64,000 bases of DNA, from contig NZ_KE340297.1 in NCBI RefSeq assembly GCF_000413315.1, positions 747,698-811,697 of the forward strand. The letters run 5' to 3'. Shown one piece after another: positions 1 through 17,047 of this stretch. A program made the translations under genes and the position numbers. Numbering within the stretch: the stretch's first letter is position 1; each line of letters starts with the position of its first letter. The notes under the pieces were generated by a model. That model saw only the letters and a list, made by a program, of their open reading frames with translations, was not told where the DNA came from and made no database searches. The stretch comes from Propionibacterium sp. oral taxon 192 str. F0372. GTDB lineage: Bacteria; Actinomycetota; Actinomycetes; Propionibacteriales; Propionibacteriaceae.

Positions 1-1
1 G

Positions 2-958
2 AGCCAGGCACAGGCACGCGTGGAAAGCACACTCAACGCCCGGTTCGGTGATCAGATTCCCCGCGATGCCCTGGCACGGATCCACGCCATACCAGGGGAC
101 ATCACTTCCTCAATGCTCGGCATGTCCGAAGCGGCCCTGTCCTTCTGCTCCGGAGTGGACACGGTGATCCATGCCGCCGCTGACGTCTCCCATTTCGCGG
201 CTCCGGGTCTGCTCACCGAGGTGAATGGCAATGCCATGCGGAATGTCATTGAGGTTGCCCAAGCACTGGAGAGCAACTTATTCCATGTATCCACATCGCA
301 AGTCATGGGCATCGTCGAGGGGAATCAAGGGATCTTTGGTGAACTGAGTCGGGACGTGGGACAAACATTTATCGACCAGTACTCGTCGAGCAAGTTTTTG
401 GCGGAACAGATCTGTTTCAAGGCCTTTGATGCTGGCTTGGGCGGTGCCGTCATGAGAGTGGGCAATCTCGCTTTCGACTCCCGAACCGGAGCGACACCCG
501 ACAACCCACTGGAGATCACCTTCACGGCACTCCTTTCAATTATCACCAGGCTGAATGCGCTTCCCGACAACTTGGCGACCATCGCGGATCTATCCTACGT
601 CGACGTCGCTGCCAAGGCGCTGACAACCTTGATCCATGCAGAAAGCCTACCGAACAGTCGCGTGTTCCATATCATGAACGGGACACGCCCCGAACTCGGG
701 ATCATCCAACAGCTCGCGGGAGCCCCTTCGACACCCGTTCCGGCCAAGCAATTCCGGGCCATGGTGGAACGAGAGTTCGCAGATCACCCCGATGATGAGT
801 GCCTGCGAAACTGCCTACTGAATGCCCATATCTGGGACGGGAACTACGGGATGGCCTTCTCAAGTAAGGAAACAAACAAATTACTGGCCTCATTGGGAGT
901 GCATTGGCCGTCACCGCAGACCGTCGTCCCACCCGCGCTCGCCTTGATCGGAGTCTGA
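2..958 (+). CDS. Thioester reductase (R) domain, C-terminal part; 5' end outside window
   Basis: This is an NAD(P)-binding SDR-fold protein of the thioester-reductase type found at the end of NRPS, PKS and carboxylic-acid-reductase enzymes, where it releases a carrier-bound acyl chain as an aldehyde or alcohol. The motifs VDTVIHAAADV and YSSSKFLAEQI are visible; the second carries the catalytic Tyr and Lys. The frame stays open to the first base and reads through the GTG at 20, so the protein almost certainly begins outside the window, probably behind adenylation and carrier domains. It points toward the minus-strand cluster genes. A free-standing epimerase-like protein starting at 20 is possible but less likely. 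Confidence 0.75.
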   Translation, partial: SQAQARVESTLNARFGDQIPRDALARIHAIPGDITSSMLGMSEAALSFCSGVDTVIHAAADVSHFAAPGLLTEVNGNAMRNVIEVAQALESNLFHVSTSQVMGIVEGNQGIFGELSRDVGQTFIDQYSSSKFLAEQICFKAFDAGLGGAVMRVGNLAFDSRTGATPDNPLEITFTALLSIITRLNALPDNLATIADLSYVDVAAKALTTLIHAESLPNSRVFHIMNGTRPELGIIQQLAGAPSTPVPAKQFRAMVEREFADHPDDECLRNCLLNAHIWDGNYGMAFSSKETNKLLASLGVHWPSPQTVVPPALALIGV

Positions 959-965
959 TAACCTG

Positions 966-1205
966 GGTTTTTGCAGATGCGAGTGTGGGTCGGTGGCGGT
1001 GTCGGGTGTGGATGCGGGCCGAGGTCTTTAGGTGATGGAAGTTCCTACGCTGGCTCACCAAAGACCTCAAAGTGCCCCACGCTACCTTCCTTCACCTAAC
1101 CTGACCACGTTGCGCCGTCTCGACAACCCCTGTCTGATCGTCGTCGGCCAGCATTTGTCCGGTCAGCGGATTCAGACCCGACCCACACCCCGACCTGCAA
1201 AAACC
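966..1205. repeat. 240-bp element with imperfect 28-bp terminal inverted repeats (MITE-like)
   Basis: The left end (966-993, starting ggtttttgcag and ending gtgtgggtcgg) is the reverse complement of the right end (1178-1205) at 24 of 28 positions. The element fills the space between the reductase and the ACP gene, which converge. No convincing protein is encoded inside, and no clear target duplication is visible. It may be a miniature inverted-repeat transposable element or an IS remnant; a very long terminator stem is the alternative. Confidence 0.55.
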
Positions 1206-1233
1206 ACCAACCTTCTTAAAGGCAAACCGCCAG

Positions 1234-1464
1234 TCAATCGGCATTCAGGGCCCGGTTGACCACCGAATTAAGATCGCCGACGGTTGCGATACCATTCAGT
1301 TCATCTACATCGATGCCCTTCCCTGTAGCCATCTCAAGATCACCCAAAGCTTGGATGAGGTCGAAGGAAGTCATTCCAAGATCTGTCACGAGATGCAAGT
1401 CCTCGCTCAGCTGGGTACCTGGCTCGCAGTACGCACCCAGTGCATCGATTAGGTGCTGGTTCAT
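1234..1464 (-). CDS. Free-standing acyl/peptidyl carrier protein
   Basis: A 76-residue four-helix carrier protein. The 4'-phosphopantetheine site is Ser33 in DLGMTSFDL, where the usual DSL is replaced by TSF. It starts at ATG 1464 and lies 40 bp downstream of the acyl-AMP ligase gene on the same strand, so the ligase is its most likely loading partner. The adjacent Sfp-type transferase at 5.9-6.7 kb would activate it. The acyl substrate cannot be told from sequence. Confidence 0.85.
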   Translation of the reverse strand: MNQHLIDALGAYCEPGTQLSEDLHLVTDLGMTSFDLIQALGDLEMATGKGIDVDELNGIATVGDLNSVVNRALNAD

Positions 1465-1504
1465 TGTGTCTTTTCCTTTCTCTAAAACCCGTTGGATGCA
1501 GCGT

Positions 1505-3034
1505 TCACCGTTGCCAAGTCAACTTCCGGCGAACGATCTTTCCCAGATCTGAACGGGGGACATCGCTTGGGGCGACACGGACAACCCGTATCTGACGATA
1601 GGCAGGCGCTTGGCTGTTCACCGCAACCACCGCACTGACAAGTGACTGCGGCACCCGGCCGACGACCCTAATCCCCGGATACTCACTGACCTCGACATCC
1701 GCTATCTCGTCGCACACGCACGTCGCTGCGAGCACGTCGCGCCCACCCAGCCCCAAAGGCTCGGCAGTGACGACGGCCTCGACGACAGACGGAAACTCCG
1801 TCAGTTCCCTCTCGATCTGCTCGGGTGACACATTGTTCCCGTCACCGAGGATGATGATGTTCTTGCTGCGGCCGGTGAGGATGATCTCTCCGTCTGGCCG
1901 GATCTCAGCCAAATCTCCGGTGGCGAGCCACCCAGAGCTGACCGGAGAACAATCCGGTTTACCGTCCACGAGATATCCGGACATGAGTGTGGGACCGGCT
2001 ACCTGCAACTGTCCATCCACAACGCGAGTACGGATGACCTCACCCATGGAAAGCCCAACACCCCCGACCGGCTCCTCGGGGCTGGTCTGGCACGACACCA
2101 CTCCGCTGCACTCGGTCATACCGTATCCATTAAGGACCCGGATCCCATTGGCCGACAAGCTGCTGATGAGCAGACTCGGAAGTGGGGCAGCCCCACACAC
2201 CAAGTACCCCACATGCCCGCCCAATAACTCCTTGGGCCCCATTCCCGCAGCCTTCATCCGGGCCGACTGTGACAGCTTCCAGATCCCTTCGACGATCATT
2301 GGCACCGTCACCAGGATCCGCGGCTGATAGTGCTGCATGACAACTGGCATGTTTTTCATATTGTGTGCGCACCCCAAGGTGCAGCCATGCTCCATAGCGG
2401 TCAGCACCGCAGCCACAGTGCCCAAGACATGATGCGCAGGAAGCAGCGGCACAGTGACACTTCCAGGGGCGAGATCCAGCTTGCCCAAAATCTGCTGGTT
2501 GGTGATAGCGACACCGGTGAAGACGGCTTCATGGGTGAGCACGGCGACTTTGGGCAGACCACTGGTGCCGGATGTTCTGAAGTAGGATGCGACATCGTCT
2601 GGACGCTGTTCCCCAGGCTCGGCGTTGCTGGGCTTCCAAGCTGCCGGAGGCAGCACCTTTACGTTCGCTGCACCGGGAAGGTCGATCCCATCAGCACGTA
2701 CTGCCACTGCACCGAGCTGAACCGCCGTGTGCGCGAGTACTTCCACGCTCGTGTTCGGAGGCACCGGATGAACTATGGCCCCAGCGCACAGCAATGCAAG
2801 CAGATCGACGATGAGGTGCTCGTCGAGGGCTCCTCGGACGAGCACAACACGCCCTCGCAGATCATGTTCCCACCGAGCAGCAGCGGTGAACACAACGCGC
2901 GCCAACTGCGAGTAGGTGAGGGAGCAATCGCCATCGAGAGTATTGACAACCGCCGGGATGTCGGGAAACCGCTCAGCGCATCCACGAACCAGTTGCTGGG
3001 CGGTCGGGAACTTAAGCAGATCAGATGAAATCAT
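1505..3034 (-). CDS. Acyl-AMP ligase / acyl-CoA synthetase (ANL superfamily)
   Basis: A 509-residue adenylate-forming enzyme that activates a carboxylic acid as acyl-AMP and passes it to CoA or, more likely here, to the adjacent ACP. Visible motifs are the P-loop TSGTSGLPK, NGYGMTECSG, GWLATGDLAEI, the hinge region LTGRSKNIIIL and a C-terminal Lys in DLGKIVRRK. The chosen ATG at 3034 has an aggaggt-like site at 3043-3048, eight bases upstream, which favours it over an in-frame start at 3085. It overlaps the previous gene by 14 bp. Substrate is unknown; a fatty or aromatic acid starter unit is plausible. Confidence 0.8.
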   Translation of the reverse strand: MISSDLLKFPTAQQLVRGCAERFPDIPAVVNTLDGDCSLTYSQLARVVFTAAARWEHDLRGRVVLVRGALDEHLIVDLLALLCAGAIVHPVPPNTSVEVLAHTAVQLGAVAVRADGIDLPGAANVKVLPPAAWKPSNAEPGEQRPDDVASYFRTSGTSGLPKVAVLTHEAVFTGVAITNQQILGKLDLAPGSVTVPLLPAHHVLGTVAAVLTAMEHGCTLGCAHNMKNMPVVMQHYQPRILVTVPMIVEGIWKLSQSARMKAAGMGPKELLGGHVGYLVCGAAPLPSLLISSLSANGIRVLNGYGMTECSGVVSCQTSPEEPVGGVGLSMGEVIRTRVVDGQLQVAGPTLMSGYLVDGKPDCSPVSSGWLATGDLAEIRPDGEIILTGRSKNIIILGDGNNVSPEQIERELTEFPSVVEAVVTAEPLGLGGRDVLAATCVCDEIADVEVSEYPGIRVVGRVPQSLVSAVVAVNSQAPAYRQIRVVRVAPSDVPRSDLGKIVRRKLTWQR

Positions 3035-4037
3035 CACGTCGTACCTCCGGGAAGATCGAGGCAGCTTCATCGAAGCTGCGAACACAGCCGATGCACTTCG
3101 CCTTGCCGGTCGTTCGCTGCAACCCGGCCACGCAGTGCTGAAAATAGGTGAAATTGTTGTGGAAAAGAATCTGAGCGAGACCTTGGACTAGGACGCTGTA
3201 CATGGACGGGGGCCACAGGGTGGAACACAATAGGCCCCGAGCCTGACCATGATGACCTGATACCCATCGCCAGATGGGAGTGAATGCGCGCACTGCCATC
3301 GCGGTGACTTGAGAATTCGTGGTTCCGGAAAAAGAGCCAACAGGAACTGGATGAGCTGTCGTTACACCGTTTTCTACAAAACTGGGTGCGCTCACCCGAA
3401 CCGTTCCGATCCCTTGCAGCACACCATTCCGATCAAAAGCGATGGAACCTGGGTCGAGTTCTGCATTCACAGTGACTTCGGTGCATCGATCCATGCATTC
3501 GATCACATCGAACAATTCCAGGCCGGTGTCGGTCCGATGACTTATGGTCGACTCCTGGAACAGCCCCGTTTTTTCCTGCCGCTCTTGGAGAAAGGCCTTG
3601 AAGCCAGCGAGTCCGTAAACGAGTTCGAAGACATGTCGGCATCCATAGTTGGTCGGCTCAACAAGGGCCGGCTCCCGAGTACGCAGGGGAACACCCACGA
3701 CATGAGCACGCGTCCTGCGCTCGATGAAGGACCGAGAACAGGTGATTCCTTGACTTCCTTGGAATGACTCGTCGATGTCGAAGGATTTGACCACACCTGC
3801 CTCATCCCACCTCATGGACAGCATCAGCGGAAAAGCAACATCGAAGCGTTCGGCATCAGCCATATTGCACATCCAAGCGGTCCCGACTATGCCTTGATCG
3901 CTCTCACCGATCCAATAGCCGACCAACCGCCCGCACAGACCTCCATCCAAGTCGCAAGCCGCTACACTGTTTCTGATGATCTCCATGTCCCAGGGCTGCG
4001 AGGGGTTCGCCAATCCTGTGGCAACAACCGTACTCAT
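3021..4037 (-). CDS. Unknown cluster protein with DUF2889-like signature
   Basis: A 338-residue soluble protein without clear catalytic motifs. It starts at ATG 4037 in an ATGA overlap with the upstream ligase and overlaps the next gene by 14 bp, so it belongs to the biosynthetic operon. The segment GCRHVFELVYGLAGFKAF resembles the Gly-Cys-x-His-x-x-Glu-Leu core I associate with DUF2889 proteins, and a Cys-containing segment (CIGCVRSF) lies near the C-terminus. This family link is from memory and weak. A role in modifying or condensing carrier-bound acyl groups would fit the position but is inference. Confidence 0.5.
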   Translation of the reverse strand: MSTVVATGLANPSQPWDMEIIRNSVAACDLDGGLCGRLVGYWIGESDQGIVGTAWMCNMADAERFDVAFPLMLSMRWDEAGVVKSFDIDESFQGSQGITCSRSFIERRTRAHVVGVPLRTREPALVEPTNYGCRHVFELVYGLAGFKAFLQERQEKTGLFQESTISHRTDTGLELFDVIECMDRCTEVTVNAELDPGSIAFDRNGVLQGIGTVRVSAPSFVENGVTTAHPVPVGSFSGTTNSQVTAMAVRAFTPIWRWVSGHHGQARGLLCSTLWPPSMYSVLVQGLAQILFHNNFTYFQHCVAGLQRTTGKAKCIGCVRSFDEAASIFPEVRRDDFI

Positions 4038-5866
4038 AACGCAGCCCCCTTCGCCCATCCAAAGACGACTTGCTGATCACCCGGAATACCATTGATGGCC
4101 CAGTCAACGAGCGCCTTCTTATCAACCTTCCCGGCGAGGATGATGGGCACCTGGGCAACGACGTGGTATTCATCCGGCTGCTTGTAGTCCGCGATCCGAG
4201 GCCTCATCGCCCTGGCCAATGTTCCCGAGGTCATCTCCTCCCCTGGTAGCGGGACAACGAAAGCGACGAGTTTCTCGCCCAGGATATCGTGCGGTATACC
4301 AACCACAGCGGCGGTCTGCACCCCCGGCAGCTGCAGCAGTTGCTCCTCAATATCGCTGGGATACACATTGAACCCGCCGCGGATGACCATATCCTTGCAG
4401 CGTCCCACGATGCTGATGTTCTCCTCATCGTGCCAGCGCGCCAAGTCCCCCGTGTACAACCATCCGTCGTCATCAACTACCTCAGCCGTCTTATCAGGCT
4501 TTCCGTAATATCCCTTCATGACAAACCCCCGAACGGCCAGTTCACCGGTGGCGCTCGCACCCCGAGGGATCTCCCTGCGATCAGCGTCAACGATCTTGAT
4601 CTCGACCCCCGGGACAGGTCGACCGACCGTCCGGAGGCGTACATCCTCGGGATCACCAATCCGGGTCATAGTGGCGATCGAACAGGATTCGACCAGCCCA
4701 TAAGCATTGAGCAGCTCGCAACCTAGCCTGTTCTCGATCTGCCGTGCCAGTTCGGGGCTGCATACCGATCCGGAGACGACTAGCCGCTCCAATCCCTCGA
4801 ACCGAGCGAAGTCCATCTCCCGGGAGTGCAGCATGAGGGACCACATGGTCGGCTGCGTGTGGATGCACTGTTCCTGCCCAGTCGAGACCTGCCGGAGAAT
4901 GTCATTGGGATTGAATGTCGACAGCATATGGAAACCGCATTCACGAGCAAAATTCTCGAACAACCCGATGAACCCCTGAGCCGAGTAGAGGGGCGCGATA
5001 GACAATGCCTCCAGACCCGAAGCCGCAAAAGTGTAGCAGGTACTCAATGAGATAGTCACGATGTCTCTGTTGCGAGTGACGACACCTTTCGGGGAGCCGG
5101 TCGTTCCCGAGGTGTAGGAGATCATCGCAGCATCCTCACCAGCGATGGGCTCCAGTCGTGGCTCCCCTGCATTCTTCGTTGCATCGGTGTATCGAACGAA
5201 CGGCGCCGGTACCTCATCTGCGATGACAATGCACGCGGTCAGTGGTAAACCCTCGGCGACCAAGTTTTGGACCATCTCGAGGTATGATCTACCCGCCCCT
5301 CTTTCCTGAAAAATCATCCCCATGGCTCCACAGTCCTCAAGAACGTTACGTATCTCGCGTTCCTGCCAACGGCTGTTCAGAGGAACAGGCAGAGCTCCCA
5401 AGACGAACAGGGCAAAATAGGAGTAGATGTATTCCAACCGGTTCTCCATCAACAAGGCGACCCGGTCACCGGCGTGCACATCCAAACGCTGGAGTCCCTC
5501 GGCCAGGGTCATGACGGCGGCGTGCAGGTCATCATAGGTGACAACCTCATCATCGAACCTGAGAGCGATCTCATTTAAGTGACGGTGGCAGATATCAAGG
5601 AACATGTCGCGTACGGTCATGTCGGATAGCCCCAACGCGGCGTTGATCGCATGGACCCACCCGACGATCGTGTCATCGCCGGTCGGGGCGGGAAGGGCCT
5701 CGACGGGCACATCCCATCGTCGGGCCACCGCGTCACCGAGGATGATACGCCTTTCCTCGTCGAGGATGCCCATACTGGTCATGGGAAGGGTGAGGGGAAT
5801 ATCGGTTAAATCTGGAAAGAGCTCTTTCGCTAATGCAGACAACTCTTCTTCCCGAACAATGGTCAT
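4034..5866 (-). CDS. Acyl-AMP ligase with N-terminal carrier-like domain
   Basis: A 610-residue protein. Residues about 1-80 look like a degenerate carrier domain: predicted helices surround PMTSMGILDEER, with Ser31 at the place of the phosphopantetheine serine. Residues about 90-600 form an ANL ligase with the P-loop SYTSGTTGSPKG, NAYGLVESCS, DGWLYTGDLARW, GRCKDMVIRGG and a C-terminal catalytic Lys in LAGKVDKKAL. ATG 5866 is preceded by ggagaag at good spacing, better than the in-frame start at 5920. It heads the ligase/DUF2889/ligase/ACP group. It may self-load its own carrier or use the free ACP; which acid it activates is unknown. Confidence 0.75.
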   Translation of the reverse strand: MTIVREEELSALAKELFPDLTDIPLTLPMTSMGILDEERRIILGDAVARRWDVPVEALPAPTGDDTIVGWVHAINAALGLSDMTVRDMFLDICHRHLNEIALRFDDEVVTYDDLHAAVMTLAEGLQRLDVHAGDRVALLMENRLEYIYSYFALFVLGALPVPLNSRWQEREIRNVLEDCGAMGMIFQERGAGRSYLEMVQNLVAEGLPLTACIVIADEVPAPFVRYTDATKNAGEPRLEPIAGEDAAMISYTSGTTGSPKGVVTRNRDIVTISLSTCYTFAASGLEALSIAPLYSAQGFIGLFENFARECGFHMLSTFNPNDILRQVSTGQEQCIHTQPTMWSLMLHSREMDFARFEGLERLVVSGSVCSPELARQIENRLGCELLNAYGLVESCSIATMTRIGDPEDVRLRTVGRPVPGVEIKIVDADRREIPRGASATGELAVRGFVMKGYYGKPDKTAEVVDDDGWLYTGDLARWHDEENISIVGRCKDMVIRGGFNVYPSDIEEQLLQLPGVQTAAVVGIPHDILGEKLVAFVVPLPGEEMTSGTLARAMRPRIADYKQPDEYHVVAQVPIILAGKVDKKALVDWAINGIPGDQQVVFGWAKGAAL

Positions 5867-5928
5867 GGTCTTCTCCAGAGGTCTGAGGGTTTTGCGGGGA
5901 TGGGGGGAATGGGTGAACATTGGGAATT

Positions 5929-6696
5929 ATGGAGACGAAGCTCCCCGAGCACGGGGCGGAGGTGGTGCTGTGCGCGGTCGGTGCTGCGACATCATGGGCC
6001 GAGTCGCTGCTGACGCGAGAGGAGCTTGAACGCGCATCCGCGTTCCGCCACGAGGTAGACCGTCGACGTTTCGTGATCGGCCACGGAGCAGTGCGTGTAC
6101 TCGCAGCTTGCCACTTGGGTATGGAGAGCTCCGAGGTGCCCTTCTTGCAGGACCGGCGGGGTCGTCCCGAACTGCCGGGAACTGGGCTGGAGTGCTCGAT
6201 CTCCCACAGCGGCGACCTCGTCGCCGTCGCAGTGGCAGATGATCGCATCGGAGTCGACGTGCAACACCATCCCGAGGAAATCCCGCTCGGATGGCAGTTG
6301 GTGGCGATTGATGCGGAACTCGAACCCACCGGGCCCAACCCGCGCACGCATTTTCTCCATAGATGGACCCAAATGGAAGCGATTATGAAGGTCACCGGGC
6401 TGGGCCTGGCACTTCCCAAGACTTCGCGCACGCTCATCCGCGACACGGGACTTCAATCCTGCTATGACACGCCCTTCGGGATGGCGAATTGCATCACGCT
6501 TGAGCTCGACGATGATCATGCCTTGTCCGTGTGCACCATCGAGAACCTCACCTGGTTCCTCTCGGCTGCCGTGGCTGACCTTGTATCCGGGGAGTTGCCC
6601 GTTCTCCGGTCGTGGAGGGGTGACAGGACCGTTCCCAACTCGTCGCCGGATGACAGACAAGTCCAACCGCCTTCGGTTCAGCCGAAGACACACTGA
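5929..6696 (+). CDS. 4'-phosphopantetheinyl transferase, Sfp type
   Basis: A 255-residue Sfp-type transferase that moves phosphopantetheine from CoA onto carrier serines. The Mg-binding motif RIGVDVQHH and the second motif RWTQMEAIMKVTGLGL, the equivalent of the family WxxKEAxxK, are both present. The Lys before Glu is replaced by Met but the metal-binding Glu is kept. It is divergent from the ligase operon, so the two share a promoter region of about 60 bp. Start is ATG 5929; an in-frame TTG at 5920 is possible. It presumably activates all five carrier domains of this cluster. Confidence 0.88.
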   Translation: METKLPEHGAEVVLCAVGAATSWAESLLTREELERASAFRHEVDRRRFVIGHGAVRVLAACHLGMESSEVPFLQDRRGRPELPGTGLECSISHSGDLVAVAVADDRIGVDVQHHPEEIPLGWQLVAIDAELEPTGPNPRTHFLHRWTQMEAIMKVTGLGLALPKTSRTLIRDTGLQSCYDTPFGMANCITLELDDDHALSVCTIENLTWFLSAAVADLVSGELPVLRSWRGDRTVPNSSPDDRQVQPPSVQPKTH

Positions 6697-6790
6697 CCCT
6701 GGCGAAGACCACTCTTGAACTCGGCCCACGACAGGAACAACGACGCTGATCAGGCCTGCGGCAACACCTCGTGACAGAGATGCGAGAGCC

Positions 6791-7048
6791 TCACGATGCC
6801 TGGGCTGACTCATCATCTGCTGTGAGCCTCTCGATGAGAGCTTGAAAGTCACCTATCGTTCGGCACTCGACGAGATCAGATGCGGGAAGCACCACCCTGT
6901 ATCGGTCCTGGATCCTATCGCCGAGGGTCACAAGTCCCAACGAATCTATGCCGAATGTCGAGGTTAAGTCCATGTCCGGGGTCAACTCATCGGCGGGCAG
7001 ACCGTAACTCTCGGACAGGAAATTAACAATTTCATCAAAGGTAATCAC
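6791..7048 (-). CDS. Free-standing acyl carrier protein
   Basis: An 85-residue carrier protein with the canonical site FGIDSLGLV (Ser36) for phosphopantetheine. It lies 16 bp downstream of the type II thioesterase in the NRPS-PKS operon and is that operon's last gene. It is distinct from the ACP at 1.2-1.5 kb, so the cluster has two free carriers. It may carry the extender or starter acid for the PKS, which lacks an acyltransferase domain. Confidence 0.88.
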   Translation of the reverse strand: MITFDEIVNFLSESYGLPADELTPDMDLTSTFGIDSLGLVTLGDRIQDRYRVVLPASDLVECRTIGDFQALIERLTADDESAQAS

Positions 7049-7064: not shown

Positions 7065-7763
7065 TCAACAAACCATCGATTCACGTTCATTCAGTCGGCT
7101 GGCCAAATATCGAGGAACTTCTTCGTTCTCATAGAAGAAGAAATGATCTCCCACGAAGGTGTACTCTTCACACCGGTCGGCGGTGAGAGAGCTCCAATCA
7201 GCATCACCCGATGCAGTTAACGGATCGACTGATCCATACAAGGCGATGATCGGGCATTCCAGTACGATCTCTTCACAACAAACGTACCTGTCGAGGACAC
7301 TGAAGTCAGACCTCAATGGCTCAAAGAAAACGCTACGCAACTCAGGCCTGCAGAGTATCTCCACAGGAATGCTGGTGTAGCCCCTGACCGACTCAAGGAA
7401 AGCCTGGTCACTGACCGACTCCGTCATATCTAATTTGGGAACTGTCCTCGGTCTCGTATTACCCGAGACCACCAACACGGCTGGTCGGGGTAAACCCATC
7501 CGATAGAGTGCTGCAGCCACCTCGTAGGCCTGCCACGCACCCATGCTGTGACCCAGCAGACCAAATGGCTCATCCAACGCTGCATCCATCTGTTTGATGG
7601 CGTCTTGCACATAATCCTCCATCGATTCCAGCAGAGGTTCGGCCAGTCTGGTTCCGTGGCCGGAACGCTCTACTGGAACCAACGCACAACCGTCGACACG
7701 CTTGATGACCGAACCGAACGATGCGGCGGTACCACCGGCATGAGCAAAACAGAAGAGTTTCAT
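7065..7763 (-). CDS. Type II thioesterase (editing)
   Basis: A 232-residue alpha/beta hydrolase of the stand-alone thioesterase family that removes wrong or stalled acyl groups from carrier domains. The catalytic Ser sits in LLGHSMGAWQ, the Asp in YGSVDPLTA and the His in FVGDHFFFY. The N-terminal KLFCFAHAGG is typical. Start is ATG 7763, in an ATGA overlap with the PKS stop; the longer in-frame start at 7796 would lie inside the PKS gene. Coupled translation with the megasynthase genes supports a housekeeping role for that assembly line. Confidence 0.9.
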   Translation of the reverse strand: MKLFCFAHAGGTAASFGSVIKRVDGCALVPVERSGHGTRLAEPLLESMEDYVQDAIKQMDAALDEPFGLLGHSMGAWQAYEVAAALYRMGLPRPAVLVVSGNTRPRTVPKLDMTESVSDQAFLESVRGYTSIPVEILCRPELRSVFFEPLRSDFSVLDRYVCCEEIVLECPIIALYGSVDPLTASGDADWSSLTADRCEEYTFVGDHFFFYENEEVPRYLASRLNERESMVC

Positions 7764-10762
7764 CGCTGAACTCCCGTCGTCAGTTGGGAAAGCCATTCAT
7801 CAACCCGGTTCGCGACCGCAGCCAAGTTGGTTCCCGTCATCATCGACATGTGGTTACCATTGACGGTAGTTAGGTGGCATACCCCATCGATGTAGTCTGA
7901 CCAGAGTCGGCGAGGGTGTTCCACGATGCCCATCTCGGCGAGGACATCTCGAGGCATCTTCTCCCGGGCGCATACGACAGTCACATCCCCCGGAAAGCGT
8001 TTCGGCGGATTGTAGGCCAGGATTCTGTGGTTCATGAGCCATTTATCGACGATGTCCTGGCTCTCGGTCTGAGTTAATCCCCGGGAGGTTAACAGTTTCT
8101 GGATAGCTTGCTCATCATGAGCGACACTGTCATCAAATTTTTCTGGCTCAAATCCCATGACTTCCAGGAGAAAACTCCGCATCCCCTGAGGGATGCTGCT
8201 TCCTGGATCAGCATCCGCATAGCTCAACGGAGGTAGGGGATCTATAAGAACTGGAGGAACGACCACCCTCCCTTGCTCAGCAAGAATCGTCGCAACTTCA
8301 ACGGTAATGTTCCCGCCTGCGGAGTACCCCCCGAGTCTTACCTCACCACACGGCCAGAAGTGGTCGATTTGTCGAGCGTACAGATCGGCCAGAGAGCGTA
8401 GATTCTGGTAATCGCGGTAGTCATCTGGCAAGGAGATGCCCACGAGACGCATAGGGGTCATCATCATCCGGCTCATCGCCCGGTACTGGAACACCGTGCC
8501 GCCGGCAGGATGAATGAGGAAGGTCGGTGTCGCTTCGTCTCCCGCATCGTTGCGAAGCACGGCGAAATTCTCAGGAAGAACTGGGTGAGATCGCCCGGAT
8601 GCAGCTTCGGCCTCGATGATCTCCGCAACATTACGTAAATTCGATGCCCCAAGAAAGCTTGCCAAGCTTAAACTAGGGTATTCCTCCCGCAACAGGTCAA
8701 GAACCTCGATTGCTTGAAGCGAGTCACCGCCAAGAGCAAAGAAATCGCTGTCTGGTGCAGCCGCCACTTTGAGTACCTCGCTCACCGCTGACACCACCCG
8801 ATCAAGCACAGTGGGCACCCATCCGACACGCACACTTGAGTGAGCATCCGAACTGCTCATCGGTGCCCATTCAGAACGGGTAGTATCCTCGGGTCCGACC
8901 CAATGCTTGATGCGTGCTAATGGATAGTGGGGTATCGGTACACGAACCGCCCCAGTACCTGCGAACAATGGCATGAGATTTTTATCCCCGCGTGTACCCA
9001 GGAGAAACCCCAGCAGAACGCCGAGCGCATCCACAGCATCGCACCCGACCGGTCTATTCCACAGCTGAGTCTCAGCGGGTGGCAAAAACTTGATGACTTG
9101 GGATGCTTCCTCCTCCAAACCCAACTGAGCCACTATGGGATCTTGAGGGCAGACCATTGCCACCAAAAGGAGGACAGCTGCCTCGGTTTCAGCATGCCCC
9201 GGAAGCAAGTGCCGCTCGATGACTGCCCGGCGGCACGCGTCCAAAACGGGGAGCAAACCGGGTGTGGTGACACTTGTATAGGAGAGCAACCTGTCCAATG
9301 CGACGTCACCGGGGATGTCTCCGCCGAGGGACGCGAATCCATCACAACTCATCCGTCTGTCGTTGCGCAGGGCCGAATAGGCTACGTCCCAAGAGTCAGC
9401 TCCGGACTCGACCGTGCACCGCAGGTCATCGAGTCTCCGCTCCACATCCTGAGGACGCACGGCAGAGACATGAACCAACGTCGGCAGCTGTACAACAGAC
9501 ATCCTGTCGGCATGCGTTCGACCTGTATGAGCACTGACGATGGCATGAGTATTCGTCCCTCCGATCCCAAAGGAACTGATGCCGATATGGCGCAGTTGAT
9601 GATTCTTCTCGATCTGCGTCGGGAATCTGAAGGTTCCCTTACTATTATCAATCTCCGGATTCAACCCAGTGAAATTGATGAGGGGTGGCATGATGCCGGT
9701 GCGGAGCATGCTGATTACCTTCACCAAGGAGGCCAGCCCGGCAGCACAGTCGAGATGCCCAATGTTGGCCTTGATACTCCCTACAGGAAGTCCCACGGTC
9801 TGTGAATCAAAGACGCGTGCAAGGGCACGGATCTCGATCGGATCACCCAACGCCGTACCGGTTCCGTGAGCTTCAAGATAGTCAATGTCACAAGGTTCAA
9901 GACCGGCGAGGGACAACGCCTCCCGAATCACCTCCTCCTCACCGTTAATACTGGGAGCCGTGTATCCGACCTTATCGTCACCGTCGTTGTTAACAGCAAC
10001 GGCATCGATGACAGCCAAGACCGGATCATGGTCGGCGATGGCGTCCTCAAGTCGGCGCAACACCACTGCACTACATCCATTGCCTTTGATCGTCCCTGCG
10101 CCGCTGACATCGAAAGGCCGACAGTAACCGTCAGCGGAGAAAATCGACTCCCGCATGTGTCGTCTGGTCCCTCGTTGCGGGATGGTCAATGAGCAAGCTG
10201 CCACAACGGCGCCATCGCACTCATAGTCCAGAAGACTCCGGCAAGCAATTTCCAAGGATACTAAGGACGAGGAACAGGCTGTCTGGATAGTCATCGCCGG
10301 GCCTTGGAGATTGAGCCGATAGGCAAGTCGAGTGGCCGCACTATCCGGGATGTTGCCAATCATGGTGAGCATGTTCGCCCCCTGAATGAGATCCGGGCGC
10401 GCAGTCATCACATTGTTGAGCAGATAGGTACTGAAAGAGGTCGACGCGAACACTCCCCAACGACGCGGGATTCCATCTCCATATCCCGCATCCTCTAGAG
10501 CGCGGAAAGCGCATGTCAGCATGAGTCTCTGCTGCGGATCGGTGAGGTCTGCCTCGGCCGACGACATTCCGAAGAATTCATGATCGAAATCTGCTACATC
10601 AGCTACTTGAGGGACCCGCGGAATGTGACCCTGCGGAATCGGCTGGTCCGCATCCATATTCAGTTCACGACCCTTGACAAGAGCTTCCCAGAGTTCATCA
10701 GGAGATGACACGCTGCTGTACCGCCCGGCTGTAGACACTACAGCGATGTCGAATCCGCTCAT
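7760..10762 (-). CDS. Polyketide synthase module KS-(AT relic)-T-TE
   Basis: 1000 residues. Residues 1-410 are a ketosynthase with Cys163 (TACSSS), His299 (EAHGTGT) and His336 (NIGHLDCAAG), so condensation looks intact. Residues 411-605 lack any GHSxG acyltransferase site, yet 606-623 (VRVPIPHYPLARIKHWVG) match the linker that normally follows an AT. Residues 650-720 are a carrier domain with Ser681 in LGGDSLQAIE. Residues 745-1000 are a type I thioesterase with GYSAGG (Ser814) and a late His in NGNHMSM. The start overlaps the NRPS stop (ATGA). It extends the NRPS product once and releases it. Extender loading must come in trans. Confidence 0.88.
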   Translation of the reverse strand: MSGFDIAVVSTAGRYSSVSSPDELWEALVKGRELNMDADQPIPQGHIPRVPQVADVADFDHEFFGMSSAEADLTDPQQRLMLTCAFRALEDAGYGDGIPRRWGVFASTSFSTYLLNNVMTARPDLIQGANMLTMIGNIPDSAATRLAYRLNLQGPAMTIQTACSSSLVSLEIACRSLLDYECDGAVVAACSLTIPQRGTRRHMRESIFSADGYCRPFDVSGAGTIKGNGCSAVVLRRLEDAIADHDPVLAVIDAVAVNNDGDDKVGYTAPSINGEEEVIREALSLAGLEPCDIDYLEAHGTGTALGDPIEIRALARVFDSQTVGLPVGSIKANIGHLDCAAGLASLVKVISMLRTGIMPPLINFTGLNPEIDNSKGTFRFPTQIEKNHQLRHIGISSFGIGGTNTHAIVSAHTGRTHADRMSVVQLPTLVHVSAVRPQDVERRLDDLRCTVESGADSWDVAYSALRNDRRMSCDGFASLGGDIPGDVALDRLLSYTSVTTPGLLPVLDACRRAVIERHLLPGHAETEAAVLLLVAMVCPQDPIVAQLGLEEEASQVIKFLPPAETQLWNRPVGCDAVDALGVLLGFLLGTRGDKNLMPLFAGTGAVRVPIPHYPLARIKHWVGPEDTTRSEWAPMSSSDAHSSVRVGWVPTVLDRVVSAVSEVLKVAAAPDSDFFALGGDSLQAIEVLDLLREEYPSLSLASFLGASNLRNVAEIIEAEAASGRSHPVLPENFAVLRNDAGDEATPTFLIHPAGGTVFQYRAMSRMMMTPMRLVGISLPDDYRDYQNLRSLADLYARQIDHFWPCGEVRLGGYSAGGNITVEVATILAEQGRVVVPPVLIDPLPPLSYADADPGSSIPQGMRSFLLEVMGFEPEKFDDSVAHDEQAIQKLLTSRGLTQTESQDIVDKWLMNHRILAYNPPKRFPGDVTVVCAREKMPRDVLAEMGIVEHPRRLWSDYIDGVCHLTTVNGNHMSMMTGTNLAAVANRVDEWLSQLTTGVQR

Positions 10763-13700
10763 TGCTTTGTCCTTCTTTCTCGTATAGCAAGTGCGTCGCG
10801 ACGCCGCTGCGCGCGCCGCTGAAGGTCACGATCACGGCGCCTCTGCCGGTCGAGCTCTTTAGTACGTTGCGCCTCTTCCGCTTCCTCATCGTCCTGCACC
10901 CGGTTGTGTCTGATACGTGCAGCGATGGATTCCACCGTTGGATGCTGAAAAAGATCGACGATGGCCAGATTTGCGTCTGGGAAATCGCGGTGTAATTGGT
11001 CGAAGAGATCCGTGAGGCTCAGTGAAGTGACCCCGATGTCGAATAAATTCTCCGAGCAGGTGAAATCCCGCGAACCGATGACTTGCGACACTGCATCGTG
11101 GACACGTGCCTGCATCGGATCGGAGATCACAGGGCCTTCGGCGAGATGTGCTCCGGTGATCTCCTCGGCCAACACTGCTAATGTCGCGACATCGACCTTC
11201 CCGTTGATGTTCATGGGCAGGGCCGGAACCGTGACGATCCGCTCAGGGACCATGTACCAAGGGACCACGCGACGCATTGCGGACCGCCAGCTCTGCACTG
11301 GGGAGTCCTCATCCGCGACAACCGCGGCGATCAGCCTCGTCCGCTTTTTGGGATCAACGAAGGCAACCGCGCTGGAGGCCCCGCTGACACGCCGAAGCGC
11401 ACTGCTTACCTCACCGAGTTCAATGCGGTAGCCACCCACCTTGACCTGATCATCTGTCCTCCCCAGGAAGGCAAACCTGCCATCGGAATTCACCCGGACA
11501 AGATCACCAGTTCTGTACCACCTACCGGGCAACCCCACTAGATTGGTCACGAAAGCACGACGAGTATTCTTCTCCCGGTTGAGGTAGCCGTTAGCGAGGC
11601 AAGGGCCACTCACCACCAACTCGCCAACGACACCCTGTGGAACGCGCCGTCCGGCTGAATCGATAACGGCCGCCCCTGCCTGGGCGAGCGGACGTCCCAG
11701 GGGAACCAACCCGTCACGATCGAGCAGATCGGCAGCAGCCACTTCTCCGGCGACGCAGATGACCGTTGCCTCCGTCGGCCCGTAGACATTCATAATGCGG
11801 TGTCTTGGATTGCTCACGCAGGCAGCCCAGTTGGACGCGACTGCCGAAGGGACCGCCTCAGCACCCAACAAGGTTGTGCGCAGATCCGGGACGCCGCTCT
11901 GAGGCAAGAACGCCTTCACCTGGTCAGCGAAGCTTGGGGTGATCATCAGACAAGTTGCGCGCGACCTGACGAGCACATCCGCGAACTGCTGGGCATCACG
12001 AATCTGCTCTTGCTCCGGAAGATGAACAGCTGCGCCCAACGCCAGGGGTGTGAGGATCTCGACCACGGAGACGTCGAATGCAAGGTGATGAGTGCGTAGG
12101 TATATGTCACCGGGTTCACAGGAGACGAACCCTCTCCAGCCTCGAATAAACGTCGACAATGCCCGGTGGGGCACCTCCACCCCCTTGGGCTGACCTGTCG
12201 AACCCGATGTGAAGATCACATAAGCCGGATCATCGTCGTGAGCTTGCACACGCAAGGATGAAACGGGCTGAGTGGGCTCCAACTCTTCGAACGCGACAGC
12301 CTCCATCCCTTGAGCCGCCAGCAACTGCGACGTACACGCATCACCGATGATCGGAACCTTCCCGAGGTCCTTGAGAATGGACGGCACCCGAGTCATCAGA
12401 TCTGGGTCCACGGGGACATAGGCCTTGCCGCTCTTCAGCACCGCGATGACTGCACTTACTTCGTCAACACCCCACGAATGGCAGATGACCACGTATCTGG
12501 CCAAAGGCCATCGCTGTTGGATGGCTGCTGCGAGTCGATCCGTCCGGTCGTCGAGCTGGCCATAAGTCACCTCTCGCTCACCAGTGATCAGCGCGATTCG
12601 CTCAGGTTCCTGTTGGGCCTGGCGCCGAAGACTCGTCACCATGTCCGGAGCCTGACCGATCACGGGTTCGATCAGAGCACTCCGATCCGCGTCATACTCA
12701 TCGGTCCCGACCAAGCTCATCGTTCCGAGAGGAGCTAAGGGTGCGGCCAGCAGCTGCTGGATGATCGACCGCAGGGTGCTCGCGATGTCGATCCCATCCG
12801 CCCACCGGCCCACCTCCACGATGAAACGATGCCCGAGCCCGTCAATGCTGCGAAACGTCGACGCGACGATGCACAGGGGAAAGGAGACGAAATCGCTCGG
12901 GAAGAACACCGGCGTCACCGTCGCATCCCCCAGCGTGCCCGACGGCTCTTCACCCTGAAACGTGAAACACGAGGCCAACGTGCCCATTCCGGGTCGGACT
13001 CCAGTCAAAGAATAGTCGACATCGCGGCGTCGCAGACACTCGATGATGGATGTATAGGCGCTGCGAGCCAGTTCCACCACGTCCATCTGATCATGGACCT
13101 TGATAAGAACCGGAAGAGTATTGACATGACAGCCGCAGTCCTCGGAAGCGGTGCGAGTGTTCACCGGGCATCCAATGACCACCGACTCCGTGTCGAGCAA
13201 CCGCGCTTGGAACAGAGCCGATATCGCCATGAACAAGGCGCTTGGAGGAAGATGATGATCCTGACACACCCGGCCTACCCCAGCGCCGAGCTCACCGTCC
13301 ACGATAATCTCCACCCGGCGCCCAGGCAGACGACCAAGGTCATCCCGAAGGCTCGGCATTCTCTCATGCCCGAAGGAGACCAATCCTTCGAAGGCCTTTC
13401 CGAAGAAGTCGGCGGCGGCAACGGCACGCTCCCTGTCAGCATGGCTGGGCTCAAGCCCCGTAGCCTGCTGGCGCCCCTTGGCGTAGGGGTCACGACCCGC
13501 ATAGACCTCCGAAAGCCTCCGTACAACCACTACTCCCGTCTGCGCATCCCATACGAGGTGGGAAGCCCAGAGCAAGATATGAGTGACCATTCCGTGGCTG
13601 GTGAGTAGTTCCACTTGCACCAAGGGTGAACGGTCAACCTCCATGGCCGACTTCTGCCGGGCCCGAGCCCTGAGCTTCGCCTGCCGATCCGGATCATCAC

Positions 13701-14031
13701 CGATCTCTACCATTCGGCAGGTCTGCTGGGGATGGGATCCGAGGAGCCGACGCCAACCCGACGTGGTCCGTACCATCCTCATCGCGATGCCCGGTTCATT
13801 CTGCAGGACACTATCCACCGCTCGCTCCAAGCGAGCGGTGTCCACTTCACCGGACACCCTGATCAACCGGACGATGGTCAGCGCCGGATCCTGAGGGTAC
13901 AAGTCAATCTGCCTCAAAAGAATCTGCTGAGGCCAGGTCGGCTCTTCGGCCCCATCCCCATCGGCTATGACAGCGACGTCATGGGTTCTTTCGTCGTGAG
14001 AGATTCCGGTGGATGATACGGGGATATTCAT
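10759..14031 (-). CDS. Non-ribosomal peptide synthetase module C-A-T with charged C-terminal tail
   Basis: 1090 residues. The condensation domain (about 25-430) carries SHLVWDA in place of HHxxxDG, keeping the second His and the Asp. The adenylation domain (about 450-950) shows FTSGSTGQPKG, NVYGPTEAT, WYRTGDLVR, GRTDDQVKVGGYRIELGE and NINGKVD. A rough specificity reading by eye is D-V-V-I-L-G-V-V-I-K, hydrophobic and not matched to a known amino acid. The carrier (about 970-1040) has Ser in DIGVTSLSL. The last 45 residues are Arg/Glu/Gln-rich and probably helical, as in docking tails. It starts in an ATGA overlap with the permease and sits directly before the PKS. Confidence 0.9.
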   Translation of the reverse strand: MNIPVSSTGISHDERTHDVAVIADGDGAEEPTWPQQILLRQIDLYPQDPALTIVRLIRVSGEVDTARLERAVDSVLQNEPGIAMRMVRTTSGWRRLLGSHPQQTCRMVEIGDDPDRQAKLRARARQKSAMEVDRSPLVQVELLTSHGMVTHILLWASHLVWDAQTGVVVVRRLSEVYAGRDPYAKGRQQATGLEPSHADRERAVAAADFFGKAFEGLVSFGHERMPSLRDDLGRLPGRRVEIIVDGELGAGVGRVCQDHHLPPSALFMAISALFQARLLDTESVVIGCPVNTRTASEDCGCHVNTLPVLIKVHDQMDVVELARSAYTSIIECLRRRDVDYSLTGVRPGMGTLASCFTFQGEEPSGTLGDATVTPVFFPSDFVSFPLCIVASTFRSIDGLGHRFIVEVGRWADGIDIASTLRSIIQQLLAAPLAPLGTMSLVGTDEYDADRSALIEPVIGQAPDMVTSLRRQAQQEPERIALITGEREVTYGQLDDRTDRLAAAIQQRWPLARYVVICHSWGVDEVSAVIAVLKSGKAYVPVDPDLMTRVPSILKDLGKVPIIGDACTSQLLAAQGMEAVAFEELEPTQPVSSLRVQAHDDDPAYVIFTSGSTGQPKGVEVPHRALSTFIRGWRGFVSCEPGDIYLRTHHLAFDVSVVEILTPLALGAAVHLPEQEQIRDAQQFADVLVRSRATCLMITPSFADQVKAFLPQSGVPDLRTTLLGAEAVPSAVASNWAACVSNPRHRIMNVYGPTEATVICVAGEVAAADLLDRDGLVPLGRPLAQAGAAVIDSAGRRVPQGVVGELVVSGPCLANGYLNREKNTRRAFVTNLVGLPGRWYRTGDLVRVNSDGRFAFLGRTDDQVKVGGYRIELGEVSSALRRVSGASSAVAFVDPKKRTRLIAAVVADEDSPVQSWRSAMRRVVPWYMVPERIVTVPALPMNINGKVDVATLAVLAEEITGAHLAEGPVISDPMQARVHDAVSQVIGSRDFTCSENLFDIGVTSLSLTDLFDQLHRDFPDANLAIVDLFQHPTVESIAARIRHNRVQDDEEAEEAQRTKELDRQRRRDRDLQRRAQRRRDALAIRERRTKQ

Positions 14032-16364
14032 TCCGCCTCCTTTAGTGCGTCGACCATATTGATCCCGGCTATCCTGCTGCCCAAAGCGATAGTCGTGACC
14101 AGTGCGGAGGACACGGCAATCACCACTGCAAGCGTCACTGACAAAGATGTGATGTAGGGGAGGTATTGAAGGCGAGGGCTCGCAAACTGAGCCAAGTAGA
14201 GATCCAGGAACCAGGCCCCACCGGGAATCCCGAGCACCACACCAATCAAAGCTGAAGCCACGACCTCTACAGAGGACAACCGCCGCAGTTCACCAGGAGA
14301 CATCCCCAACACACTCAATGTAGCATACTGGCGTTGACGTTCATCGAAAGTGAGACTCCCCAGCGAATAAAGCACGATGATGCACAGCAGGATTGCCATC
14401 ACTCTCATCAAATTGAAGATGTCACCGAGGCTTTCTTTGATATTGAGGGAATTGGACTGCTGATCAGCCCTGGACACAACATCCAGCACTCGCGGGTCAT
14501 CAAGTACCTGAGTGACATCGGCATCCGATCCCACGAGCATCGACGTCGGGGAGAAGACCATCCCCAGTGATTCCCAGCCCTGTCGGCTCATGAAGAATCC
14601 TTGGGGCATTTCCGCTGAGACGATGCCACTGACGGTCAGATCGAGATCACCGAGACCACGTGGAAGCCTCAGCCTCACCGGGGAACCAGCGTCGAGACGA
14701 AGCCGCTCCGCAGTGTCGCTGGTCACCCACAGTCCATCCCCCACCACGGCTTGGTCATCTTGGGTTCGCAGATGGAATCGATCGTTCTCGTCCAGCACGG
14801 TGATGACTCGGTCATACCCATCAGAAGGGTCAGTCATGACAGGCATCTGCATGATAGCTTGTGGGTTGGATCCCAATCCCTCAATGGGAGTGGTCACCTG
14901 GGGAAGGCCACCCATATCTACTCGGAAGTCATAGTCCATGGAGTCGGCGCTGAATGACGATTCGGCTCTGTTTTGCATGGTGTCGGGTAGCCCAAACCCG
15001 GTGAACAGCAGCATGAGACAACCAGCGACTCCGATTATTCCCATCAGAAATCGTGCGATGTTGGATGCGGTGTCACGGATCGCCCACCGAATGCCATAGC
15101 GATGGCCATTACCCAGACGACGCAACCTGGTGGCTGCACGAGAGGCCCGGACCAGCCCCGGACGCATCAACAACGCGGGAGACCGGGTAAGTGCTGACCC
15201 TGATGCAAGATAGCCCCCGGCCACGCATGCCACCACCACGAGGACGGCAACGAGTAGTGGTGCCCAGGTGTACGCAACACGCCAATGCGGTAGATCGAAC
15301 TGGGTCGACTGTGAGCGCAGCACGACGCGCGACAAGAGCGGCGCCACGGCGAGCCCCACGACGGAACCCGCCACACCGGCCAGCATGCCAAACATTGAAA
15401 AGTGTAGGCGCAATTCACCACGCCCGTAGCCCATGGATTGGAGGGTCGCAATTGTCTTGAGCTCGCTGTCTACCAAGCGCCTCGTCGAGGAGTACATAGC
15501 CAGTACCCCGACCAGGAGGAAAAGCGCAGAAAAGAGCATCGACACATTGCGAATCACGGTGACTCTGTCATAGGCAGCAGAGATGTGACTGTCGGTCTGG
15601 CGTGTGGTAATACGCAATCCCTGCTCGTCGAAGCAGTCCCACAGTTCGTCCACTGTCCCCGAGGAATCATCACCACTTACCAAAATGCTGTTACTTGCTG
15701 CATCTTCCCACGAAGGGCCCCACAACTTCTGAGCAGTGGCAGGCGTGATGAAGCCGTAGCTGAACATGCCTGGTTCCGGAACCAAGAAGAGTGACTCCTT
15801 GACGTCATAGAGCTGATCGGGGGACTGCACGATTCCTCGGATAGGTACCGTCACCTCTCTCCGTCCTCCGGGGGCAGCTACCGTCAACGTCAGTTGATTG
15901 CCTTGGACTAGTTCGTTCGCGTCGCGATACCGCGGACTCACCCAGATCCCCTCACCGGCATCCGTGACTGGTTCCCCGTCAACGACCGAGGGAACGCTGA
16001 CCCGCCACGAGTCGGCATTCGCAGTCGAAGTGAGGGACAGCCAGGAGGTGTCCCCATTGTCCGATGCCACCTCGGCAGATCGGATAACACGTTTCTCCAC
16101 AGCATCGACCCCGGGGATTTTTTTGGCCTCGTTAAGTTGCGCTTCCTCGACGTGAATAGCTTGGATCCACACTTTCGCCATGGATGATGACTCGGCATAG
16201 TCCTGAAGACTCACCTGCATTCCCCGCCAGCCACCTTCGAGTCCAGTATATGCGAGAACACTGAGAGTAGCCATGCAGAAAACCGCAATGAACTGTGCCC
16301 ATGAGTGGAGCAGACCACGCCGTAACATGGCTACCTTAAATTTCATTCCACTAGATTTACTCAT
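14028..16364 (-). CDS. ABC transporter permease, FtsX/MacB type
   Basis: 778 residues with an N-terminal membrane helix, a large extracytoplasmic domain, three helices around residues 270-390, a second extracytoplasmic domain and three C-terminal helices. This is the ten-helix double-FtsX layout of actinobacterial exporters. ATGA overlaps join it to the ATPase upstream and the NRPS downstream. Co-translation with the synthetase suggests it exports the product or protects the producer, but the substrate is inferred only from position. Confidence 0.88.
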   Translation of the reverse strand: MSKSSGMKFKVAMLRRGLLHSWAQFIAVFCMATLSVLAYTGLEGGWRGMQVSLQDYAESSSMAKVWIQAIHVEEAQLNEAKKIPGVDAVEKRVIRSAEVASDNGDTSWLSLTSTANADSWRVSVPSVVDGEPVTDAGEGIWVSPRYRDANELVQGNQLTLTVAAPGGRREVTVPIRGIVQSPDQLYDVKESLFLVPEPGMFSYGFITPATAQKLWGPSWEDAASNSILVSGDDSSGTVDELWDCFDEQGLRITTRQTDSHISAAYDRVTVIRNVSMLFSALFLLVGVLAMYSSTRRLVDSELKTIATLQSMGYGRGELRLHFSMFGMLAGVAGSVVGLAVAPLLSRVVLRSQSTQFDLPHWRVAYTWAPLLVAVLVVVACVAGGYLASGSALTRSPALLMRPGLVRASRAATRLRRLGNGHRYGIRWAIRDTASNIARFLMGIIGVAGCLMLLFTGFGLPDTMQNRAESSFSADSMDYDFRVDMGGLPQVTTPIEGLGSNPQAIMQMPVMTDPSDGYDRVITVLDENDRFHLRTQDDQAVVGDGLWVTSDTAERLRLDAGSPVRLRLPRGLGDLDLTVSGIVSAEMPQGFFMSRQGWESLGMVFSPTSMLVGSDADVTQVLDDPRVLDVVSRADQQSNSLNIKESLGDIFNLMRVMAILLCIIVLYSLGSLTFDERQRQYATLSVLGMSPGELRRLSSVEVVASALIGVVLGIPGGAWFLDLYLAQFASPRLQYLPYITSLSVTLAVVIAVSSALVTTIALGSRIAGINMVDALKEAE

Positions 16365-17047
16365 GGGAGACTCACCACGTTATTCCTGACAACCTCAGCG
16401 ATTCGACCATCGCGAAGGCGAATCAGTTGGTCCGCCAAGCCGACATATCCCTCGTTGTGTGTGACGATGACCACCGCAGTGTTGGAGGTATGGGCAGATT
16501 CACACAGGGTTGCCATCACCTCGTCACCAGTGACAGAGTCGAGCGCCCCAGTCGGCTCGTCACACAACAGCAGAGCCGGCCTCTTGGCGAGGGCTCTTCC
16601 GATCGCAACCCGTTGCATCTGGCCACCCGATAGCTCGTGCGGGAAAGACGACTCACGCCCTTCCAGACCAAGTTGAGCAAGGATCTGAGATGGGTCGATG
16701 GGCGACTCGACACCACGACTGGCAATTCCGATATTCTCAGCAGCGGTAAGCGTGGGAATGAGATTGTAGAACTGAAAAACGAATCCAACACTCTCACGTC
16801 TGTATCTCGTCAATCCCGAGTTCGTCATCTCCTCAATCCGAACCCCATTACACTCAATAGTCCCAGAAGTGGGTTGGTCCATACCACCCAGTATGTTCAG
16901 TAAAGTAGATTTTCCTGATCCGGAGGGACCCACAATGATCGACACTTCACCATTATGAATGTCGAGTGACACGCCGTCCAGCGCACGGACATCAATATTC
17001 CCAGTCCGGTAGACACGTTGAACATCTCGAGCAGAAATCAATGACAT
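16361..17047 (-). CDS. ABC transporter ATP-binding protein, LolD/MacB type
   Basis: 228 residues with Walker A GPSGSGKST, Q-loop near FQFYNLIPT, signature ELSGGQMQR, Walker B LLLCDEPTGALD and switch His in VIVTHNEGY. It is the first gene of the long leftward operon and partners the FtsX-type permease, with which it overlaps by ATGA. Expression probably starts in the intergenic region shared with the divergent TetR gene. Confidence 0.93.
   Translation of the reverse strand: MSLISARDVQRVYRTGNIDVRALDGVSLDIHNGEVSIIVGPSGSGKSTLLNILGGMDQPTSGTIECNGVRIEEMTNSGLTRYRRESVGFVFQFYNLIPTLTAAENIGIASRGVESPIDPSQILAQLGLEGRESSFPHELSGGQMQRVAIGRALAKRPALLLCDEPTGALDSVTGDEVMATLCESAHTSNTAVVIVTHNEGYVGLADQLIRLRDGRIAEVVRNNVVSLP

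Follow-up and report, generated by a model that had tools for sequence, protein, structure and literature searches.

A stretch of 64,000 nucleotides from Propionibacterium sp. oral taxon 192 str. F0372 (bases 747,698–811,697 of contig 1, hereafter the window; genome size 2.71 Mb) opens inside a biosynthetic gene cluster, which we read, with slightly better than even confidence, as a hybrid of nonribosomal peptide synthetase (NRPS) and polyketide synthase (PKS) genes combining a tetramate synthase primed by an acyl-loaded acyl carrier protein (ACP), equipped with an exporter and lacking C3-acetylation genes, with a module that would form a thiazole and release its product reductively. The product class best supported by the genes inside the window would be an exported N-acyl tetramate without C3 acetylation. 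Since the cluster begins at the first base of the window, the 20 kb to its left were also read. Its genes are as follows, position 1 being the first base of the window:

1–958, plus strand: end of an NRPS with heterocyclization (Cy), adenylation (A), carrier (T) and thioester reductase (R) domains, comprising the linker between the peptidyl carrier protein (PCP) and the R domain, and the R domain; its gene (L003:6681-10958) begins at window position −3319.
1234–1464, minus strand: free acyl carrier protein ACP2; PF00550, 26.4 bits (cut-off 20.8); motif GMTSF.
1505–3085, minus strand: acyl-AMP ligase 1 (ANL1); PF00501, 136 bits; 28% local identity, E 1.5e-39, to the ligase of L065 (see below).
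3021–4058, minus strand: orphan protein of 345 residues.
4034–5920, minus strand: acyl/aryl-AMP ligase 2 (ANL2); PF00501, 234 bits, and PF13193, 54.5 bits.
5929–6696, plus strand: Sfp-type phosphopantetheinyl transferase (PPTase); PF22624, 28.9 bits (cut-off 27), and PF01648, 23.4 bits (below the cut-off of 25).
6791–7048, minus strand: free acyl carrier protein ACP1; PF00550, 49.3 bits; motif GIDSL.
7065–7796, minus strand: type II (editing) thioesterase (TE2); PF00975, 95.5 bits; motif GHSMG.
7760–10762, minus strand: MucE-type PKS with ketosynthase (KS), ACP and thioesterase (TE) domains, without acyltransferase; Pfam; KS Cys-His-His, GGDSL, GYSAGG.
10759–14031, minus strand: MucD-type NRPS with condensation (C), A and T domains; Pfam; C motif SHLVWDA.
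14028–16364, minus strand: FtsX-type exporter permease; PF02687; 43% identity to L065 and 63% to G039 (see below).
16361–17047, minus strand: ABC exporter ATPase of the LolD/MacB type; Pfam; 57% identity to L065.

The minus-strand genes are transcribed in the order ABC ATPase, FtsX permease, C-A-T, KS-ACP-TE, type II TE, ACP1, ligase 2, orphan, ligase 1 and ACP2, with spacings of −65 to +16 bases, that is, overlapping or abutting, except where the plus-strand PPTase interrupts the run between ACP1 and ligase 2 (94 bases from ACP to PPTase and 8 from PPTase to ligase). The Cy-A-T-R unit converges on this run across a 275-base gap that holds a large hairpin. Most of this inventory had been given by the initial annotation, in which the two acyl-AMP ligases, the two free ACPs, the R domain, the editing thioesterase and the dedicated exporter were all named as found here by Pfam; with ACP2 in place, its count of two ligase/ACP pairs is also correct. 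Its single PKS module stands, while its single NRPS module becomes two, since the R domain closes a Cy-A-T-R protein that starts left of the window. The PPTase within the cluster had gone unmentioned, and the protein at 3021–4058 had been called DUF2889-like, a label that finds no support here: PF11136 gave no match to it, or to the whole genome, at E up to 10, with a model that was weak in the controls (signal in 3 of 14 control genomes, above the cut-off in none of the 14).

Fatty ring molecules of the tetramate kind are used against neighbours by some oral and food bacteria. The catalytic motifs are present for the KS, the ACPs, the TEs, the PCPs, the R domain and the PPTases, and the C domain of C-A-T retains the active His and Asp of the HxxxD motif, S157, H158 and D162 being invariant across four aligned C domains. 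No acyltransferase match was found in the KS-ACP-TE protein with Pfam, also when the search was repeated at E up to 10. The same division of domains has been described for MucD (C-A-PCP) and MucE (KS-ACP-TE), which with malonyl-CoA gave, both in vivo and in vitro, an N-acyl pyrrolidine-2,4-dione, the ring closure being performed by the TE of MucE (PMC10161427). The longest two-piece KS-to-TE match among the matches listed (1335 plasmid records with a match) is to a muc-like cluster on a Lactiplantibacillus (L.) plantarum plasmid (L038), which consists of an acetylation trio, C-A-T, KS-ACP-TE and a PPTase. Over the full length the two KS-ACP-TE proteins are 34% identical (KS 41.5%, linker 21.4%, ACP 27.5%, TE 28.3%). 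The PPTase of the window carries the motifs GVDV and WxxxEAxxK and matches that of the L. plantarum cluster (E 1e-9); an open reading frame on the opposite strand (5992–6852, minus) was weighed as a gene and dropped in its favour. A second Sfp-type PPTase is found some 10 kb to the left of the window (L002:9869-10579, minus strand), adjoining an MFS transporter and a TetR-like regulator.

In a genome of another genus of the same family (G156; 69% complete), 12 kb of one contig (L065) contain, in order, ACP, ligase, C-A-T, KS-ACP-TE, ABC ATPase, FtsX permease and PPTase, and the 4-base overlap of the C-A-T and KS-ACP-TE genes is the same there as here. Its ACP, which precedes the ligase (L065:2388-2576), is 40% identical to ACP2 (E 8e-8), and its ligase is matched by ligase 1 as given above and by ligase 2 at E 3.5e-22. 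This run links ACP2 and ligase 1 with C-A-T, hence with N-acylation, and supports the small acylated product that had been suggested at first, as do the ACP/ligase pair and the C domain that opens the NRPS. Nothing in the 20 kb read of the G156 contig corresponds to the thiazole half, ligase 2, ACP1, TE2 or the orphan; as G156 shows, the core forms a unit of which the thiazole half is not a part. With a profile of KS-ACP-TE (A4), coverage from KS to TE was found only in the F0372 genome and G156 among 197 genomes of the family, and only in the F0372 genome among 396 of the phylum, counts that are lower bounds, since at most four (family) and two (phylum) candidates were scored per genome.

The thiazole half consists of two adjoining genes. 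Cy-A-T-R (1425 residues, starting 3,320 bases before the window) has condensation-type, adenylation, carrier and thioester-reductase domains and opens directly with Cy, having no loading domain of its own. The heterocyclization motif DxxxxDxxS is present as DLFFLDGPS at residue 140, as are the motifs GADSL, GATGxLG and YSSSK, and the R domain scores 129 bits with PF07993. Among solved structures, BmdB is nearest with its Cy-A-PCP module (E 5.9e-170). Read by eye, the A domain has the motifs SGDWIPVDLP and GGATEGAIWSIW, which we take to resemble the adenylation codes for cysteine. Cysteine is thus the putative substrate, from these motifs and from the nearest full Cy-A-T structure, the Cys module of BmdB. 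The gene directly preceding Cy-A-T-R encodes a SagB-type oxidase of 328 residues (TIGR03605, 93.6 bits; cut-off 78.4), a stand-alone member of the nitro-FMN reductase superfamily with an N-terminal extension, for which the best solved structure is BmdC (E 9.1e-31 over residues 10–323, a full-length match).

Whether the two halves belong together was approached through relatives of Cy-A-T-R. At E <= 1e-150 its profile is matched in 4 of the 396 phylum genomes, none of the others over the full length. In G039, of the same genus, the genes are grouped as well but arranged differently: KS fragment, C-A-T, FtsX, ABC, TetR, dehydrogenase, HXXEE protein, oxidase and Cy-A-T-R. This copy is broken, as the KS ends after about 204 aligned residues and the R domain is split by a transposase-like gene of 413 residues (L035:10332-11573, IS256-like by eye), past which the remainder of the R domain resumes. 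The 40 kb compared contain no ligase, ACP or PPTase gene, and the G039 genome gave no match to ligase 2 at E <= 1e-40 or to ligase 1 at E <= 1e-60. The only relative of the locus found among named genomes is a metagenome-assembled Propionibacterium sp., AS27yjCOA_218 (JAAYVB010000001.1; L051); a contig scan with Cy-A-T-R alone found none, and the scan with an alignment found this one. It has the oxidase and Cy-A-T-R, with TetR and a truncated ABC gene, and C-A-T was not found in its 24 kb; an in-frame stop splits Cy-A-T-R into open reading frames of 963 and 449 residues. Both relatives are therefore broken, and neither stands beside a whole core. For several genes G039 and L051 show the same identities, and the two are close relatives, so that the association of the halves is backed by one further lineage at most, itself decaying. 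Two Deinococcus plasmids (NZ_CP092189.1 and NZ_CP097152.1; L085 and L086) carry a type I PKS, a Cy/adenylation protein, a thioester reductase, an aminotransferase, a GNAT protein and a ketoacyl-ACP synthase III.

Genes, domains, catalytic motifs and their order are read directly from the DNA; the reactions and the product class are inferred from relatives. In the proposed mechanism, ANL1 would activate a fatty acid and load it onto ACP2, as proposed for this pair, and the C domain of C-A-T would condense this acyl group with a hydrophobic amino acid. The KS-ACP-TE protein, lacking an acyltransferase, would accept the acyl-aminoacyl chain and extend it by one malonyl unit, loaded in trans, probably via the malonyltransferase of fatty-acid synthesis, and its TE would close the lactam to give a tetramic acid, an N-acyl pyrrolidine-2,4-dione that bears no C3-acetyl group. 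TE2 would clear misloaded carriers, the nested PPTase would arm the carriers, and the ABC/FtsX pair would export the tetramate. In the other half, ANL2 may load a second acid onto ACP1, Cy-A-T-R may join it to cysteine and cyclise the product to a thiazoline, the SagB/BmdC-type oxidase would convert the thiazoline to a thiazole, and the R domain would release the thiazole as an aldehyde or alcohol. The initial suggestion of an aldehyde-bearing product thus stays possible, as the R domain has its motifs; the R domain, however, sits on the separate Cy-A-T-R protein, and the NRPS/PKS line has a thioesterase of its own.

Several points weigh against this reading. Identity of C-A-T to the muc-like and G156 NRPSs is only 23–26% over the whole alignment and that of the TE to the muc-like TE only 28%, so that lactam closure remains a prediction. 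Likeness to the muc core lies foremost in architecture and only moderately in sequence. In a KS tree of 35 of 38 candidate rows (L007 and L034, as fragments, and L029, with an internal stop, were left out), the fork with L. plantarum is weak (91/29) and a wider four-row fork including G156 has moderate support (94/81); neither is starred, and the bootstrap is unsettled. No homologues of MucA-C (3-oxoacyl-ACP synthase, thiolase and zinc-ribbon protein) were seen among the genes read around the cluster, no dedicated genome-wide search having been made for them. The adenylation codes were read by eye, neither AMP ligase has a known substrate, and no partner gene of the thiazole half proves which ligase feeds it.

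The low identity of the TE also bears on the idea that KS-ACP-TE frees a linear N-acyl beta-keto acid, which would decarboxylate to an acylamino ketone with no tetramate ring. Sequence cannot reveal ring closure; yet the tri-domain layout equals that of MucE, whose TE closes the ring (PMC10161427), and we hold the linear outcome to be improbable. Unlikely, but with appreciable weight, is the view that an N-acyl tetramate cluster and a thiazole cluster are unrelated and adjacent by chance. It would suit the convergence of the halves across the gap and hairpin, the presence of the tetramate half alone in G156, and the Deinococcus plasmids, which have Cy-A-T, R and, in one of two, SagB genes and no tetramate half. 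It sits less well with the occurrence of TetR and ABC genes within 10 kb of SagB-Cy-A-T-R in both G039 and L051, which amount to one extra lineage at most. The G+C content, about 0.57–0.60 from position −3999 to 18 kb and thus over both halves (most of the flanks are mostly at 0.61–0.65), fits a joint acquisition and is no proof of it.

A single line, running from acyl-ACP through C-A-T to a Cys-specific Cy-A-T-R and yielding an N-acyl-aminoacyl-thiazole aldehyde or alcohol, with KS-ACP-TE extending an earlier chain or a side chain, is in our estimate rather unlikely; it corresponds to the aldehyde-bearing lipopeptide-like product of the initial annotation. Cy-A-T-R begins at Cy without a loading domain, and the genes for Cy-A-T-R, oxidase, C-A-T and exporter are close together here and, in another order, in G039. 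On the other hand, C-A-T adjoins KS-ACP-TE in G156, where the 20 kb read lack Cy-A-T-R, the two core genes overlap by 4 bases, KS-ACP-TE has its own TE, and the two units are convergent here. Very doubtful, finally, is a hybrid thiazolyl tetramate, in which the thiazole aldehyde from Cy-A-T-R would condense with the acidic C3 of the N-acyl tetramate, or a thiazole acid would be the N-acyl group, the orphan being the joining enzyme.

As to the genes that would feed the thiazole half, the nearest solved structures to ANL2 are, with close scores, salicylate-AMP ligase, dihydroxybenzoate-AMP ligase and fatty-acyl ligases, which points to either a fatty-acyl or an aryl ligase. Its N-terminal extension resembles, by eye, a carrier domain without the serine (extension against ACP1, E 0.001). 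For the orphan, no Pfam match was below E 0.19, NCBIfam gave none, and matches in the PDB were at E 0.15 or worse; relatives were found in 1 of 394 class genomes (its own) and in none of 72,556 plasmid records. The AlphaFold2 model, made with no alignment, has a mean pLDDT of 37.5.

The priming and export genes recur in the family apart from the core. A ligase profile (A7) matched 9 of the 197 family genomes, including F0372 and G156, and the flanks were read in five of the seven others (all but G100 and G086): one (G075) has ligase and ACP only, and four have exporter, PPTase and a free C domain. In these mini-clusters (G106, G145, G064 and G168, at L106:8821-16469, L107:2122-9467, L108 and L109) an ANL1-like ligase stands with the same kind of ABC and FtsX genes, an ACP in three of four and a PPTase in all four, and a stand-alone condensation domain (46–71% alike) replaces C-A-T and KS-ACP-TE. 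We know of no published account of them; they are possibly N- or O-acylating systems with an exporter. Their make-up indicates that the priming/export cassette serves different condensing enzymes, so that a recurring ligase-ACP-PPTase-exporter cassette carries either a free C domain or an entire NRPS/PKS line. The FtsX profile matched 5 of the 197 genomes, and no ligase or assembly-line gene adjoined it in the flanks of G034 and G021.

Two further features belong to the cluster's setting:

966–1205, no strand assigned: imperfect large inverted repeat with 28-nt arms, 86% complementary, between the two convergent transcription units.
17793–18392, plus strand: TetR regulator (PF16859 and PF00440), kept next to the exporter in G039 and L051.

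The inverted repeat (fold z −4.19; a single copy in the sequence examined) is possibly a bidirectional terminator or a small mobile element. To the right of the cluster lies, by eye, a propanediol-utilisation-like operon. Elsewhere in the genome a second NRPS cluster (G000:C1:1947651-1968000; L058:2652-19998) encodes two condensation/adenylation proteins, one of 1434 aa and one of 2869 aa that also has methyltransferase matches, together with an AMP ligase and an oxidoreductase of the GFO/IDH/MocA kind, and looks like a siderophore line of the pyochelin/yersiniabactin type.

Among known systems, the Deinococcus plasmid clusters resemble the thiazole half in the Cy/adenylation protein, the separate thioester reductase and, in one of the two, a SagB/ThcOx dehydrogenase; they differ in the aminotransferase and GNAT genes that then follow and in having no C-A-T and KS-ACP-TE core in the annotated stretch. 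Another is the bacillamide pair BmdB and BmdC, described as a complex that makes thiazole, with BmdC as the bacillamide thiazoline oxidase (PMC8795117). Both loci have a Cy-A-T, here with motifs that look Cys-type by eye, and an adjoining stand-alone oxidase of BmdC length. The single module here closes with an R domain where the bacillamide line goes on to another C domain, and the genes read at the locus include neither an Ala-loading module nor a tryptamine enzyme. With the muc and rtc clusters of mutanocyclin and reutericyclin, the locus shares a C-A-PCP NRPS followed by an acyltransferase-less KS-ACP-TE, a PPTase close by and an expected fatty-acylated starter, and departs from them in its ACP/ligase starter pair, ABC/FtsX exporter, ANL2/ACP1 pair, orphan and Cy-A-T-R/oxidase half. 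As no MucA-C genes were seen, the cluster is counted as a relative of the MucD/MucE core and not as a muc/rtc member. The initial view that it matches no recognised cluster thus gives way for the C-A-T and KS-ACP-TE proteins, which have the mucD/mucE architecture (PMC10161427), and holds for the thiazole half, which has no muc counterpart, and for the missing MucA-C. A literature search turned up no paper on the combination of a muc-like core with a thiazole half, which is no claim of absence from print. The logic of the core is already published, and its combination with a thiazole module is an unusual variant of known chemistry. If the tetramate reading is true, seven core genes would form a small system making an N-acyl tetramate that lacks a C3-acetyl group, the locus would be a candidate for the joining of two short assembly lines, and the MucD/MucE route would extend to the Propionibacteriaceae with ACP-based priming, a dedicated exporter and an adjoining thiazole module.

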